From positions 3,162,001 through 3,226,000 of the forward strand of contig LS483371.1 in the NCBI GenBank assembly GCA_900475325.1: a DNA stretch of 64,000 nucleotides, given 5' to 3'. Below the pieces are notes generated by a model. It worked only from the letters and a program-made list of their open reading frames with translations. It ran no database searches and was not told the origin of the DNA. Source of the DNA: Paucimonas lemoignei (GTDB lineage Bacteria > Pseudomonadota > Gammaproteobacteria > Pseudomonadales > Pseudomonadaceae). Position 1 is the first letter of the stretch. Every line of letters starts with the position of its first letter. This document shows positions 1,783 to 54,440 of the stretch, piece by piece. Made by a program: the position numbers and the translations under genes.

Positions 1783-2799
1783 ATGAACAAACGTCCGGCC
1801 ACCCTTCGCGGCATTGCTCAACAACTGAATGTCCATGTGTCGACGGTCTCTCGGGTGTTGAACGGCACCCTGGATCACGCCGGGCGCGCGGCGTCCAAAG
1901 ACACCATCAAGCGCATCCGGGCGTTGGCCGCCAGCCTTGATTACCAGCCCAACACCCACGCCAGAACCCTGAAAACCCGGCACAGCCGCGAGATTGCGAT
2001 TCTGGTGCCCAGGCTCTCGGACATCGTGCTGGCCACGGTGTATGAAGGGATCGACGAAGCCGCCAGCGCCCGGCGCTACACCTCGTTTGTCGCCAACACC
2101 CTGGACCGGCCGGAACGCCAGCGTGAACTGGCCGAACGCGCCCTGGCCCGCAACGTCGAGGGGCTGATCATCAGTGACGTGCATTGCACCCCGGAACCGG
2201 GCTTTCTGGAAGAACTGGCGGAGCGTCGCGTGCCCTTCGTGCTGGTCAGCCGACGCCGCGCGCCCCATTGCTCAGTCACCTCGGATGACGAAATGGGCGG
2301 GCGCCTGGCCGCTCAACATTTGTTTGCCCAGGGCCACACACGTGTTGCGGTGATCGCGGGCGAGGCCCACAGCAGCAATGCCAGCGAGCGGACTGCGAGC
2401 TTTGTCGAGTACTACCGCGAGCGCGGCATAGAGATAGGTCCTGAGCGGGTTATCTCCGGCCAGTTCGATACCGCCACCGGTTTCAGCATCGGCGAACACT
2501 TACTGGCTCATCCGCAGCCGCCCACGGCGATCTTCGCGGTCAACGACTTCCTGGCCATTGGCCTGTTCGGTGCGTTGCGCGACCGAGGCCTGGAGGCCGG
2601 ACGGGACATTGCGGTGGTGGGCTACAACGACACGCCGTTGGCCGCCCACCTGCAATTGACCAGCATCAGCACCAGCATGCATGCCCAGGGCGTGCGTGCC
2701 GTTGAAACCCTGCTGCGCCTGATTGCCGGGGAAACGGTGCAGTCCTACCGTTTCCCCGCCGCGCTGAAGGTGCGCGCCAGCAGCCTTTACAGGCCTTAG
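1783..2799 (+). CDS. LacI family transcriptional regulator
   Basis: A protein of 338 aa with an N-terminal helix-turn-helix (TLRGIAQQLNVHVSTVSRVL, about residues 7-26) and a hinge helix. The periplasmic-binding-protein-like effector domain runs from about residue 65 (EIAILVPRLSD) to the end, including the conserved AVNDFLAIGLFGALRDRG and VVGYNDTPLA blocks. An in-frame GTG lies 9 nt upstream, but the ATG at 1783 has an AGGTG 7-8 nt before it and gives the normal family start. It is probably a repressor of the divergent transporter through the palindrome at 1668-1685. The effector is unknown. Its stop overlaps the stop of the convergent TonB receptor gene. Confidence 0.92.
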   Translation: MNKRPATLRGIAQQLNVHVSTVSRVLNGTLDHAGRAASKDTIKRIRALAASLDYQPNTHARTLKTRHSREIAILVPRLSDIVLATVYEGIDEAASARRYTSFVANTLDRPERQRELAERALARNVEGLIISDVHCTPEPGFLEELAERRVPFVLVSRRRAPHCSVTSDDEMGGRLAAQHLFAQGHTRVAVIAGEAHSSNASERTASFVEYYRERGIEIGPERVISGQFDTATGFSIGEHLLAHPQPPTAIFAVNDFLAIGLFGALRDRGLEAGRDIAVVGYNDTPLAAHLQLTSISTSMHAQGVRAVETLLRLIAGETVQSYRFPAALKVRASSLYRP

Positions 2800-5225
2800 A
2801 AACCGACCGTGGCCGACACCAGCCAGGTACGTGGCGTCGACAGGGTCAGGCCCGCCGCGGCATCCGATGAAGTCGCGGCCGACGCCCAATAGGTTTTGTT
2901 CAGCACGTTTTCCACCCCGGCGCGCACGGTGACGGGGTTGGTGCCGAGCTTGAACGCGTAGCGGCCACCCAGATCGTACCGCTGCCAAGCGTCGATTTTC
3001 TGGTCATTGGCCTGATCCAGATACTGCGAGCCGGTGTGAATGGCCCGCGCGGTCAGGGTCAGCCCCGGCAGTTGATCGAGGTCGTATTCCACGCCCATGT
3101 TGGCGTTGAGGATCGGCGAACCGGTGCCACGCTTGCCGTCAAACTGGCCCAGTGCGGTTTTGGTCTGTTCGCTGTCCAGCACCATCACCCCGCCCAGCAA
3201 ACGCAGGTCGCTGGTCAATTCGCCGAACACGTTCAACTCCACACCCTGGTTGCGCAGTTCGCCATCGGGTTTGAAGTTGCCTGCCGCATCGGTGATGTAG
3301 CTCGGCTGCTCGATGCGGAACACGCTCAGGGTCGTGGCAAACCCGCCCATGTCCAGCTTGACCCCGGCCTCGGTCTGCTTGGATTTGTAAGGCGCAAAGA
3401 CTTCGTCGCGGTTGGTGGCGGTGGTCGGGGCGGTCTCACCCTGGCTCAGGCCTTCGATGTAGTTAGCGTACAGCGAGATGTGGTCGGTGGCTTTGATCAC
3501 CAGCCCGACTGCCGGTGACGTGGCCTGTTCGTCATATTGCTGGCCCAGAACGCCGGAGGCATAGGCGTCAACCTCGACCCGTTGCAGGCGTGCGCCCAGG
3601 GTCAACTGCACGCGATCATCAAGAAAACCCAGGGTGTCGGACAGCGCCGCGCTGGTGAACAGGTTCTCGGTGTGGGTCGAGGTGTCGAACCGCGTGGCCG
3701 CGCCGGGGTACGGCGCCAGGACGGGGTTGTACAGGTTGCTGGTGCGCGCCAGGTAGCGCTCGCCACCGTTATCGAAGTCCATGTCGAAGCGGTTCAGGCT
3801 GACGTTGAGCGTATGACTGATCGGGCCGGTATTGAGCCAGCTCCGCGCACCGACGGTGAAGGTTTTGACGTCTTCGTCGCGCTGGAAACTGCGTGGCTGG
3901 AACGCGAAGTTGCCGTTGCTGTTATTGACCTGTACCGCATGGCGCAGGAAGTCATATTCACCTTTGCGTGCCCCCGCCGCGGCGTACACCATCAGCGAAT
4001 CGCTGACATCAAACTCGCCCCGTACCGCGCCGAAGGTGTCCTTGGAGTTGGAGTAGGTCCAGGGCTGGGCGAAGTTGTGGTGGATGTCTTCGGCCTTGGG
4101 CATCTTGATGCCGGCAGCGACTTCCACGCGCTCGATAGGCGCATCCGCGTGGCGTTCCTGGCGTCCGAAGTCGGCGGAAAGGCGCACTCGCTCCTTGCGA
4201 AAATCCAGGCCGACCACCGCAGCTTCGCGCTCGACGCTCTGGTGATCCCACTCGGTGTCACCCGACTGGCGCACGCCATTGAAGCGAATGCCGTATTCCT
4301 GTTCGTCACCGAAGCGCCGACCAATGTCCACATGCCCGCCAAACTGACCGGCCGACGCGTAGCTGCCGGTGAATTCGGTCAATGGCTCGCTGCCCGCGCG
4401 CTTGGGTTCGATATTGATGCCGCCCCCGACACTGCCACGTGGCGCGATGCCACCGAGCAACGCGCCGGGGCCTTTGAGGATGTCGATGCGCTCGACCATT
4501 TCCATGTCGATGGAATACGTCGGCAGCACGCCGTACAAGCCGCCAAACGACACATCGCTGTTGTACAGGCTCAGGCCGCGCACCGAGAACTGCTCGAAGC
4601 GCCCGCCCGCCGGGTTGGTGATGCGCACCGACGGGTCATTGGCGACCACATCGCCCAGGGTTCTCGCCTGCTGGTTCTTCACCGTGGTGCTGGTATAGGA
4701 CGTCAGGTTGAACGGGGTTTCCATGAAGTCCTTGTCACCGAGCAAGCCCTGGGCGCCACGACGATTGACCTGCCCGCCTTCATAGACATCGCCCTGGGTG
4801 TCGAACGCGCTGCTGTTGATCGAGGTCTGCGGCAGGTTCAACGATCCGCCTTCAGGCGCGGGCGTCAAGGTGTACGACTGATCACTGACCGGCTGCAGTT
4901 GCAAACCCGAGCCTTGCAGCAGTCGGGCGAAACCTTCCTGCACGCCATAGCTGCCGCTGAGCCCGGCGCTGTTGCGGCCGGTGACTAATGCCGGATCAAC
5001 CGACAGGCTGACCCCGGCCTGGGCCGAGAACTGATTCAGGGCGCTGCTCAAGCTGCCTGCAGGAATCTGATAGCTGCGCTTGGCCGCTTCTTGCGCCACG
5101 GCCGGGGCAATGTACATCGAACCGGCGCTCAACCCCGCCAACACACCGGCGTGACAAGTCATTTGCAACACAGGACGCATGCCCAAGCGGGCCAGGCGCA
5201 GACGTCGAAGAAAAACTGCAGGCAT
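2796..5225 (-). CDS. TonB-dependent siderophore receptor with N-terminal signalling (STN) domain
   Basis: An outer-membrane transducer of 809 aa. After a signal peptide (ending near AVA-QEA) comes an STN domain (about residues 50-105, YQIPAGSLSSALNQFSAQAG), which touches FecR-type anti-sigma factors. The plug follows (ARTLGDVVANDPSVRI, VERIDILKGPGALLGG, GSVGGGINIEPKR), then the beta-barrel, ending in VSATVGF with the C-terminal aromatic needed for outer-membrane assembly. It imports a ferric siderophore with TonB energy and signals ligand presence. A TTG codon 36 nt upstream is an alternative start, but the ATG at 5225 with GAGAG before it is better placed. It lies downstream of fecR- and fecI-like genes with a small gap, as in FecIRA-type units. 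The ligand cannot be read from the sequence. Confidence 0.93.
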   Translation of the reverse strand: MPAVFLRRLRLARLGMRPVLQMTCHAGVLAGLSAGSMYIAPAVAQEAAKRSYQIPAGSLSSALNQFSAQAGVSLSVDPALVTGRNSAGLSGSYGVQEGFARLLQGSGLQLQPVSDQSYTLTPAPEGGSLNLPQTSINSSAFDTQGDVYEGGQVNRRGAQGLLGDKDFMETPFNLTSYTSTTVKNQQARTLGDVVANDPSVRITNPAGGRFEQFSVRGLSLYNSDVSFGGLYGVLPTYSIDMEMVERIDILKGPGALLGGIAPRGSVGGGINIEPKRAGSEPLTEFTGSYASAGQFGGHVDIGRRFGDEQEYGIRFNGVRQSGDTEWDHQSVEREAAVVGLDFRKERVRLSADFGRQERHADAPIERVEVAAGIKMPKAEDIHHNFAQPWTYSNSKDTFGAVRGEFDVSDSLMVYAAAGARKGEYDFLRHAVQVNNSNGNFAFQPRSFQRDEDVKTFTVGARSWLNTGPISHTLNVSLNRFDMDFDNGGERYLARTSNLYNPVLAPYPGAATRFDTSTHTENLFTSAALSDTLGFLDDRVQLTLGARLQRVEVDAYASGVLGQQYDEQATSPAVGLVIKATDHISLYANYIEGLSQGETAPTTATNRDEVFAPYKSKQTEAGVKLDMGGFATTLSVFRIEQPSYITDAAGNFKPDGELRNQGVELNVFGELTSDLRLLGGVMVLDSEQTKTALGQFDGKRGTGSPILNANMGVEYDLDQLPGLTLTARAIHTGSQYLDQANDQKIDAWQRYDLGGRYAFKLGTNPVTVRAGVENVLNKTYWASAATSSDAAAGLTLSTPRTWLVSATVGF

Positions 5226-6817: not shown

Positions 6818-6881
6818 TTAGTTACCGTCAGTGCGCCAACTTATTTACATATCTATAGCGTTCGGACGTCCTGCGCATGAA

Positions 6882-7200
6882 TCTGCGAAGCAGATTTGCT
6901 TTGGCTCTTTTCCCTCGATTTCACAGACGACGCAAAATGCGCGTCGGGAGGGTGAACGCAGGTGTCGTGGTGGGGGTCGCTCGGCATGGATGCCGAGCGA
7001 GCGCCGTTGGGCCATGGATGGCCCGTCGGCGCGTGCCCCCACCACGGCGCCGGAGTGAACGAACCCTCGCGAAGCGAGGGCCGGACGCCAGCGCAGAGGT
7101 TTTGGTTACTTTTGGCACCAAAAGTGACCCGGCCGTCAGGACGGAACCAGACTCAGCAGCCCCAAAGTGCTGTTGTCATTACACGATCAAAGGCGCGACG
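6882..7200 (+). repeat. Large structured intergenic repeat, copy A (single unit)
   Basis: This fills most of the 500-bp gap between the sigma factor and araH. It contains serial perfect hairpins: GCTCGGCATGGATGCCGAGC, GGGCCATGGATGGCCC, CCTCGCGAAGCGAGG, and the imperfect palindrome around ACTTTTGGCACCAAAAGT. It then ends in CGGCCGTCAGGACGGAAC. The same order of modules recurs, inverted, in the left halves of the elements near 35.8 and 53.7 kb. Short open frames on both strands are arginine/proline-rich by-products of the palindromes. From 7201 to 7327 I see no gene or clear signal. Confidence 0.85.
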
Positions 7201-35767: not shown

Positions 35768-36420
35768 TCGGTAGCTTCGACGAATCAGCATGGTGAGCCT
35801 TGAATCGCGTAGCAACAACAGCATCCGGGCGCTGCTGAGTCAGGTTCCGTCCTGACGGCCGGGTCACTTTTGGTGCCAAAAGTAACCAAAACCTCTGCGC
35901 TGGCGTACGGCCCCCGCTTCGCGGCGGTTCCTTCGCTCCGGCACCGTGGGGCGGGCACGCGCCGACGGGCCATCCATGGCCCAACGGCGCTCGCTCGGCA
36001 TCCATGCCGAGCGACCCACCCCACGGCACCTCCACTCAGCCTCCCGACGCGCATTTTGCGGCGTCTGGGAAATAGCGGCAGGAAAAGCAAAAGCAAATCT
36101 GCTTTGCAGATTTTTCCAGAATGATTTCCTTCCTGACTCGCACTCTGCTTTTGATTCTGTAGGCGTGCGCAAAACGTATGGGCGACACAAATTGCGACTT
36201 GTGGCCGGCCGAGCGCAGGTATTGCGTAGTGGGCAACCCGGCATGGATGCCGGGTTAGCCGCACCGGGCCAGGGATGGCCCTTTGCGGCGGCCCACGGAG
36301 CAATGCCGGAGTGAGGGAAGTCTGAGCCTTGGCGAAGACCCGGACAAAGGAGCGGGAGCGTTTTGCTTACTTTTGCGCTCTATCAAAAGTGAGGCGCCGT
36401 AAGGGCGCAAAGGTGAATCA
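35768..36420. repeat. Large structured intergenic repeat, copy B (two units)
   Basis: It occupies most of the 830-bp gap between the LysR and aldo/keto reductase genes. The left half is copy A inverted, with the hairpins GCTCGGCATCCATGCCGAGC and GGGCCATCCATGGCCC and the ACTTTTGGTGCCAAAAGT palindrome. A central AT-richer joint (AAATCTGCTTTGCAGATTT hairpin) leads to a second unit containing CCCGGCATGGATGCCGGG. The right-hand end has diverged from copy C and lacks the matching terminal arm, so this copy looks degenerate. Between 36421 and 36495 I see no gene. Confidence 0.85.
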
Positions 36421-36495
36421 GCGTCGCCGCCGCTGCTGGATATGCATGGTTTTAGAGCTCTGCAAATAGAGTATCTACAGGACCTAGGTGCGCCT

Positions 36496-53554: not shown

Positions 53555-53642
53555 GACGCAAAAACGCAAGCACTGAGCTGACCGAGGTTACGACGGCTGC
53601 GAAGGCGGCGTGTCTGACACTGCACTGTTCCCGGCCTCAACA

Positions 53643-54329
53643 AATCAAGGCATTGCGCCTGGATTCGAGTAGCAACAACAGCATCCGGGTGCTGCTGAGT
53701 CAGGTTCCGTCCTGACGGCCGGGTCACTTTTGGTGCCAAAAGTAACCAAAACCTCTGCGCTGGCGTACGGCCCCCGCTTCGCGGCGGTTCCTTCGCTCCG
53801 GCACCGTGGGGCGGGCACGCGCCGACGGGCCATCCATGGCCCAACGGCGCTCGCTCGGCATCCATGCCGAGCGACCCACCCCACGGCACCTCCACTCAGC
53901 CTCCCGACGCGCATTTTGCGTCGTCTGGGAAATCGTGGGAGGAAAAGCAAAAGCAAATCTGCTTTGCAGATTTCTCCGGCAAGACGTCTTTCTGACTCAC
54001 CCTGCTTTTGATTCTCCAGGCTTGCGCAAAATTTATGGGCGACACAAATTGCGACTTGTGGCCGGCCGAGCGTAGGTATTGCGTAGTGGGCAACCCGGCA
54101 TGGATGCCGGGTTAGCCGCACCGGGCCATGGATGGCCCATTGCGGCGGCCCACGGAGCAATGCCGGAGTGAGGGAAGTCTGAGCCTTGGCGAAGACCCGG
54201 CCAAAGGAGCGGGAGCGTTTTGCTGGTTACTTTTGGCACCAAAAGTGACCCGGCCGTCAGGACGGAACCTGACTCAGCAGCACCTGGATGCTGTTGTGGC
54301 TACTCGATTCAAGGCGCAATGCTTTGATT
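53643..54329. repeat. Large structured intergenic repeat, copy C (complete, with inverted arms of about 100 bp)
   Basis: The most complete copy, filling most of the 1-kb gap between the dehydrogenase and the HDOD gene. The left arm (53643-53753; AATCAAGGCATTGCGCCT, then TCAGGTTCCGTCCTGACGGC) and the right arm (54228-54329) are near-perfect inverted repeats. Between them lie two head-to-head units with hairpins GCTCGGCATCCATGCCGAGC and GGGCCATCCATGGCCC (left) and CCCGGCATGGATGCCGGG and GGGCCATGGATGGCCC (right), joined by an AT-richer AAATCTGCTTTGCAGATTT hairpin. Arginine-rich open frames inside are by-products. A REP half-arm abuts on the left (about 53573-53622). Confidence 0.88.
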
Positions 54330-54350
54330 CGTCGAAGCTACCGACATACA

Positions 54351-54440
54351 AGGAGCTGACCGAGATCACGAGGGCTGCGAGGCGGCCTGTCCGACACTGC
54401 GCTGTTCGCAGCCCTCGTAACCTCGGGCAGCTCCTACAGG
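54351..54440. repeat. REP inverted pair, AGGAGCTGACCGAG family
   Basis: AGGAGCTGACCGAGATCACG and the inverted partner ending GGGCAGCTCCTACAGG adjoin the right end of structured repeat C. Confidence 0.82.

Follow-up and report, generated by a model that had tools for sequence, protein, structure and literature searches.

The window analysed here is a stretch of 64,000 nucleotides of the Paucimonas lemoignei chromosome (contig LS483371.1, positions 3,162,001 to 3,226,000), and it carries three copies, A, B and C, of an intergenic repeat of roughly 0.6-0.7 kb that is dispersed on the chromosome. Copy C (~53634-54338) has two arms, placed head to head, that flank a variable core, and it ends in 115-nt inverted repeats that are 93% complementary (Table 1). 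The inverted ends, the two head-to-head units and the central hairpin described for this copy in the initial annotation were confirmed, although the central hairpin ranks among the more variable parts of the element. The stems CTCGGCAT/ATGCCGAG and CCCGGCAT/ATGCCGGG are both present in copy C. The same annotation had placed the element in three gaps and had regarded copy C as complete. All three gaps do carry copies, but the element is found in 80 places of the 5.92 Mb chromosome (77 beyond the window and the three window copies), and copy A has one arm only; likewise, copy C has its two arms but is atypical, in that the other class-A copies compared with it (see below) are without its right end. 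A scan of copy C for sigma-70-like promoters found none.

Table 1. Coordinates of the repeat copies and their parts in the window
Feature	Position	Strand	Basis or remark
Copy C, whole head-to-head element	53634..54338	none	sequence, inverted-repeat and copy comparison
Copy C left outer inverted end	53634..53748	-	93% complementary to 54224-54338
Copy C right outer inverted end, of left-end type	54224..54338	+	inverted-repeat and copy comparison
Terminal hairpin, left arm, GGUUACUUUUGG/CCAAAAGUGACC read outward	53722..53747	-	among the least variable parts, 38 copies
Terminal hairpin, right arm	54225..54250	+	fold; corresponding bin variable between copies, 0.101
TwoAYGGAY RNA (RF01731), copy C left arm	53813..53877	-	51.2 bits
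Three-way junction, copy C left arm	53800..53890	-	MFE fold, outward strand; P1 also in other arms
P1 of left-arm junction, copy C	53800-53816/53874-53890	-	encloses hairpin 1 and hairpin 2
Left-arm hairpin 1, copy C	53852-53873, loop 53860-53865	-	MFE fold
Left-arm hairpin 2, copy C	53819-53850, loop 53832-53837	-	MFE fold
TwoAYGGAY RNA, copy C right arm	54089..54151	+	48.4 bits; hairpin 1 54092-54113, hairpin 2 54115-54146
Central hairpin AAATCTGC-TTT-GCAGATTT in copy C core	53955..53973	none	varies between copies
Copy B, end points approximate	~35774..36481	none	arms 35953-36017 (-) and 36232-36294 (+)
Copy A, half element, single arm	~6865..7176	+	TwoAYGGAY 6974-7038 (+)
REP-type inverted pair flanking copy C, outside element	54351..54435	none	inverted-repeat comparison

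All five arms of copies A, B and C pass the covariance model of the TwoAYGGAY RNA (RF01731), with scores of 51.2, 51.2, 51.2, 48.4 and 44.5 bits against a gathering cut-off of 43 bits. In each case the matched strand is the one that reads outward from the core, and the alignment spans the two hairpins together with the inner portion of the stem that closes them. The clan of the matched family, CL00106, is presumably that of CsrB and RsmY. The isolated outward strands of the copy C arms are predicted to fold into a three-way junction (z = -6.66 and -6.75 compared with 200 shuffles), and the arms have the structure of TwoAYGGAY, namely two adjacent A-N-GGA-Y hairpins inside an enclosing stem, supported by covariation. 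Of 130 arms, 88 form this stem, P1, with at least 16 pairs when one mismatch is tolerated, while one shuffle per arm gave a maximum of 15; 58 distinct sequence pairs form it over all 130. Matches to mir-8799, HCV_SL588, SAH and CRISPR-DR9 in copy C were below their own Rfam cut-offs and were taken as chance.

The loop of both arm hairpins reads CANGGAYG, which is the published RsmE/CsrA target CANGGANG. The optimal target is given as (A/U)CANGGANG(U/A), with ANGGA exposed in a loop above a 3-bp stem, in the accessible part of PMC5668361, and CANGGANG appears as the target of the P. putida Rsm proteins in that of PMC6849547; measured against this consensus, the arms carry CANGGANG with ANGGA in a hairpin loop. 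Against circularity, 134 arms of the P. lemoignei genome were located by their terminal hairpin and not by their loops, and were then searched inward. The A, G, G and A columns of both loops were kept in 132-134 of 133-134 arms each. The N position was T in 92, A in 12, G in 10 and absent in 20 arms for the first loop, and T in 96 and G in 38 for the second, while Y of the first loop varied less than N (T 111, C 20, A 3). In ~20 of the 134 arms, the first loop is shortened to CAGGACG.

When Watson-Crick stems were required for detection, the two positions expected in these arms gave 228 hairpins, of which 225 had the sequence CA[T/G/A]GGATG, with 168 T, 46 G, 11 A and 0 C. This usage fits the preference of RsmE, which effectively bound only ATGGA and AGGGA hairpin loops in the assays described in the accessible part of PMC9928087. 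Given that these surface plasmon resonance assays used ssDNA hairpins, binding alone would not prove a role as RNA. In an outside group (G276, G387 and G264), hairpin 2 is often without a GGA loop; the P. lemoignei locus L144 was left out of this comparison, and also of the 25-versus-17 departure count and the arm-order count given below. An extra hairpin is predicted in the left-type end at 54256-54273 (GUCAGG-ACGGAA-CCUGAC), and its ACGGAA loop is a possible third Rsm site.

At E values up to 0.001, the genome has at least 142 RF01731 matches (150 of 383 candidates scored). The exact pattern of hairpin 2 occurs 70 times on each strand, compared with 0 for the reversed control. At 74 loci of this genome (L031-L104), neighbouring arm pairs are head to head in 61 cases, tail to tail in 2 and in tandem in 2. 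Using a crude frame-composition gene caller made for this analysis, we found 35 of the 80 places between convergent genes, 36 between co-directional and 7 between divergent ones, 2 remaining uncalled (convergent versus divergent, p = 1.5e-5); a neighbouring gene reads into the element at 71 of the 78 called places. With dnaA at position 1 of the contig, the first element match lies at 830 kb and the last, among the matches listed, at 5,344 kb of 5,924 kb. A repeat desert thus covers ~24% of the chromosome around the origin, ~0.6-0.8 Mb on each side of dnaA, the upper side among the matches listed.

The initial annotation had also noted REP arms abutting copies B and C and proposed that both repeat types may act or move together. 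Of 20 left ends found by a simple pattern, 10 have REP-like sequence no more than 90 bp away; REP adjacency is common, but it is not constant, and the link is weak.

The copies fall into two classes. In class A, the window type, the left end is unlike the usual right end, and copy C has the left type at both ends. Among the class-A copies compared, copy C alone matches to its own right end; the others stop at ~580-651 of 705 and continue, among the matches listed, into another right-end type; two end types occur in the other class-A copies. The left-type sequence at the right end of copy C (54224-54338) suggests that end segments were exchanged between copies. In class B, the P1 stems are of other kinds and often longer, and the cores vary; by eye, some cores were judged to hold REP-like or tandem sequence. 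The arm ends form a second conserved block, made up of a hairpin like TTACTTTTG...CAAAAGTGA followed by a GC-rich hairpin, with varied loops.

For the stems, we compared 45 of 70 distinct units from this and other species (12 of 36 from this genome, 33 of 34 from others), aligned without gaps. They had been selected for a 28-nt spacing, A-N-GGA-N in both loops, and pairing at 5 or more of 7 and at 4 or more of 7 inner positions. Two-sided changes occurred in 18 of 19 stem pairs; in these units, pre-selected for partial inner pairing, 93.5% of cells were paired compared with 66.3% after shuffling, and the covariation score was 0.610 against 0.134 for shuffles (0 of 500) and 0.081-0.134 for slid controls. 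Because the set was pre-selected, we make no claim from it on loop constancy or on the percentage of inner pairs; the six outer pairs of hairpin 2, which were free of this selection, showed two-sided changes in 6 of 6. It should be noted that the units from other species had been retrieved with a model biased towards these loops and stems.

Given the selection for partial pairing, the count was repeated without any pairing requirement on arms of the P. lemoignei genome located by their terminal hairpin (21 distinct stem sets, a few of the 134 rows being misaligned). Here, 92.3% of cells were paired, compared with a mean of 82.2 and a maximum of 85.3 in 500 shuffles, and two-sided changes affected 8 of 19 pairs in 37 cells (shuffled mean 12.0, maximum 20).

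Variation between copies was examined at 38 of the 80 places, which hold near full-length class-A copies by a BLAST criterion. In the left arm, the mean minor-base frequency was 0.000 on the 5' side of P1, 0.008 in both hairpins and 0.013 on the 3' side of P1, and it was 0.011 in the terminal hairpins; the right-arm hairpins had a mean of 0.015. The core (0.065) and left spacer (0.071) were more variable, and the outer left end was the most variable part (0.154). The right spacer was also low (0.022) and the right terminal-hairpin bin high (0.101), the latter being expected from the two end types. Gene conversion alone, without selection on each copy, could lower the diversity of the arms.

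Overall, the compensatory stem changes and structural constraint claimed in the initial annotation were borne out by the 18 of 19 pairs, the unselected control and the low variability of the left arm; rather than decaying like neutral DNA without covariation, the stems exceeded all 500 shuffles in both paired cells and two-sided changes. That structural reading was right about the constraint but missed that the loops are steadier than the stems and spell a CsrA/Rsm site on the outward strand.

We also considered whether the structure is kept at the RNA or at the DNA level. Departures from stem pairing do not separate the two, as G-T and A-C departures numbered 25 versus 17, and 11 versus 7 in the unselected set. 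The outward strand folds to a lower energy in 131 of 132 distinct arms of this genome (flanks, 54 of 134), in 45 of 49 arms of other genomes of the genus and in 74 of 91 of other genomes of the class. This asymmetry was rejected as proof of RNA: when 44 of the 132 arms were dinucleotide-shuffled, -10.5 of the -15.6 kcal/mol persisted, or two thirds, and the outward advantage in this genome is mostly base composition. The outward excess of GGA outside the two loops is likewise compositional (5.47 seen, 5.63 expected), while a depletion of GGA on the opposite strand remains (0.58, where a mononucleotide shuffle predicts 3.45 and a first-order estimate 2.0). The RNA reading is favoured by the strand-specific identity of the loops, together with the fact that Rsm proteins are RNA regulators.

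A covariance-model search for the unit, as the initial annotation had proposed, found RF01731 in 73 of 119 genomes of the genus, in 18 of 274 of the class and in 35 of 398 of the phylum sample, our genome being counted each time; 34 of the last 35 belong to the same class and one match is weak. Filters were stricter in these searches, and no more than 21, 9 and 6 candidates, respectively, were scored in any one genome, so that per-genome counts are lower bounds and absences are not firm. An exact 15-base pattern scan (at least 120 loci, 51 of the 120 listed with the two-hairpin unit) was set aside for the distribution beyond the class, given the chance matches of 15 bases in 257 billion bases. 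CsrA has 3 matches in the P. lemoignei genome and is present in 18 of 18 class genomes with the RNA, this one included; as 235 of 274 class genomes have CsrA, this co-occurrence is weak and amounts to a necessary condition. Using blastn with copy C and one class-B arm, we obtained matches in 2 of 72,556 plasmid records (one is 4.9 Mb long); of 50,697 phage records, searched with the class-B arm only, 1 matched.

Site occupancy differs between species. The counterpart of site B in the relative G022 is 46 bp long against ~834 bp in the window, and site A is without the element in two relatives, G022 and G018; for copy C, one flank only aligned in the four relatives compared. The description of a dispersed, inverted repeat was sustained, with two sites lacking the element in relatives, but the proposed comparison of occupied and empty sites showed no clean target duplication at the copy B site against one relative.

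Head-to-head order also prevails over tail-to-tail and tandem order among the loci fetched from other species; a tail-to-tail pair with adjacent outer ends occurs in another genome of the genus (L127, 1465-2058). Some head-to-head arms enclose open frames, some of them AT-rich, which are possibly cargo or chance neighbours: a 3.3-kb core with sce7725 and sce7726 family genes by NCBIfam (L425, 3180-6541), a frame of 220 codons, lipoprotein-like by eye (L427, 3806-4769), a nuclease-like frame below curated cut-offs (L142, 1559-2873), and further frames in L150 (1548-2115) and L120 (289-1513). Insertion sequences are repeatedly found inside arms. In the P. lemoignei genome they lie in or at the terminal-hairpin loop (L036 at ~1922-3185 with an IS481-type transposase by Pfam, L077, L060 and a short remnant in L062), and outside it they were noted at L436 (~5180) and L435 (~3930-5010): in phage contig MT121968.1, an integrase-core transposase gene stands beside an arm cut at the start of the terminal hairpin, and the spacer of the P. 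antarctica plasmid copy is interrupted by a sequence judged by eye to be IS110-like.

A palindromic repeat of this kind may owe its structure to copying, as a non-autonomous element, either MITE-like or transposed as a single strand, with hairpins that are folded DNA ends for a transposase acting in trans, the resemblance to CsrA sites being incidental or secondary. Its high copy number, its inverted ends, the empty sites in relatives, the head-to-head arms around open frames in some genomes and the lack of copies near the origin (upper side among the matches listed) all agree with this. We nevertheless consider it unlikely as the main explanation: no transposase sharing the ends was seen in the loci examined, the copy B site gave no clean target duplication against one relative, the plasmid and phage records searched hardly carry the element, and it is the outer left end that varies most, whereas the constant loops match Rsm sites.

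Still less probable, in our view, is a repeat that terminates transcripts or protects mRNA 3' ends, in which the stems matter and the loops are kept by gene conversion. The bias to convergent genes (35 versus 7) speaks for such a role and has been reported for other P. fluorescens repeats (PMC2718517), but the terminator-like sites in copy C (2, against a shuffle mean of 1.2) are not above shuffles, and constant CANGGAYG loops amid changing stems are left unexplained. The palindromic design and the origin-proximal gap, again on the upper side among the matches listed, could also suit a DNA-level cruciform serving as a nucleoid, gyrase or recombination site; such a site would leave the GGA loops of the outward strand unaccounted for, none of the analyses lent support to the nucleoid or recombination role raised in the initial annotation, and we regard it as highly improbable.

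The reading that we favour, and think probable, is that the arms are RNA elements selected to bind RsmA/RsmE as a pair, within read-through 3' RNA, and that they could collectively titrate Rsm. The outward strand of each arm would encode a structured RNA in which selection acts on a pair of CsrA-family (RsmA/RsmE) sites: the three-way junction would keep two hairpins with A-N-GGA-Y loops, closed by C-G and 28 nt apart, next to each other, and a single CsrA dimer could then bind both at once. Two such arms, head to head, make up the dispersed repeat; read-through from either side would then place the distal arm in sense, and Rsm would bind the 3' part of the neighbour's transcript, where it may alter stability or termination. 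Summed over ~140 arms, these sites might compete for Rsm protein as a diffuse sponge. The analysis establishes the copy number, the arrangement, the predicted structure, its covariation, the constraint on the loops and the difference in occupied sites between species, and from there we infer transcription of the arms, Rsm binding in the cell and a regulatory effect.

Provided that the arms are transcribed and bound, ~280 repeat-borne hairpin sites (~140 arms by the exact hairpin 2 pattern, two each) would belong to the Rsm network of this bacterium, at places that differ between species, and the spread of the repeat through the genome may have spread regulator-binding sites. A broader proposition, which we put forward tentatively and with some doubt, is that largely chromosomal repeats of Gammaproteobacteria distribute paired CsrA/Rsm clamp sites, that their copying rewires post-transcriptional regulation, and that some bear cargo between riboregulatory ends.

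The TwoAYGGAY RNA motif is a table entry in PMC2864571. Its function is given as unknown in the accessible part of PMC4333381, which puts it forward as a predicted CsrA-binding sRNA for Clostridia, a prediction made from motif matches without a test; other CsrA-related sRNAs are described in PMC9788540. Our search among open-licence papers found no description of the repeat as a carrier of Rsm sites. The prediction of CsrA binding is thus already known (PMC4333381), while TwoAYGGAY packaged as a high-copy head-to-head repeat had no printed description that we found in this literature. The present element would provide a concrete carrier and a hypothesis of function for this RNA family. The arms reach the gathering score of RF01731 and share its two AYGGAY hairpins and enclosing stem; the difference is that here they recur as arms of a chromosomal element that is arranged head to head and present in high copy number.

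Two repeat families of P. fluorescens, R178 (101 bp) and R200 (320 bp), are likewise intergenic and chromosomal and biased to convergent gene pairs, as compared by description rather than consensus with the accessible part of PMC2718517. REP and REPIN sequences are also palindromic intergenic repeats and often adjacent to the element (10 of 20 ends), but copy C exceeds them in length and has its REP-type pairs beyond its own ends; REPs are not known to show loop- and strand-specific constancy. The sponge RNAs CsrB/CsrC and RsmX/RsmY/RsmZ are products of dedicated regulated genes. The element resembles them in having several GGA hairpins per RNA that could hold CsrA dimers, but differs in being present in 80 places, as an inverted pair and with no promoter found in the sigma-70 scan of copy C.
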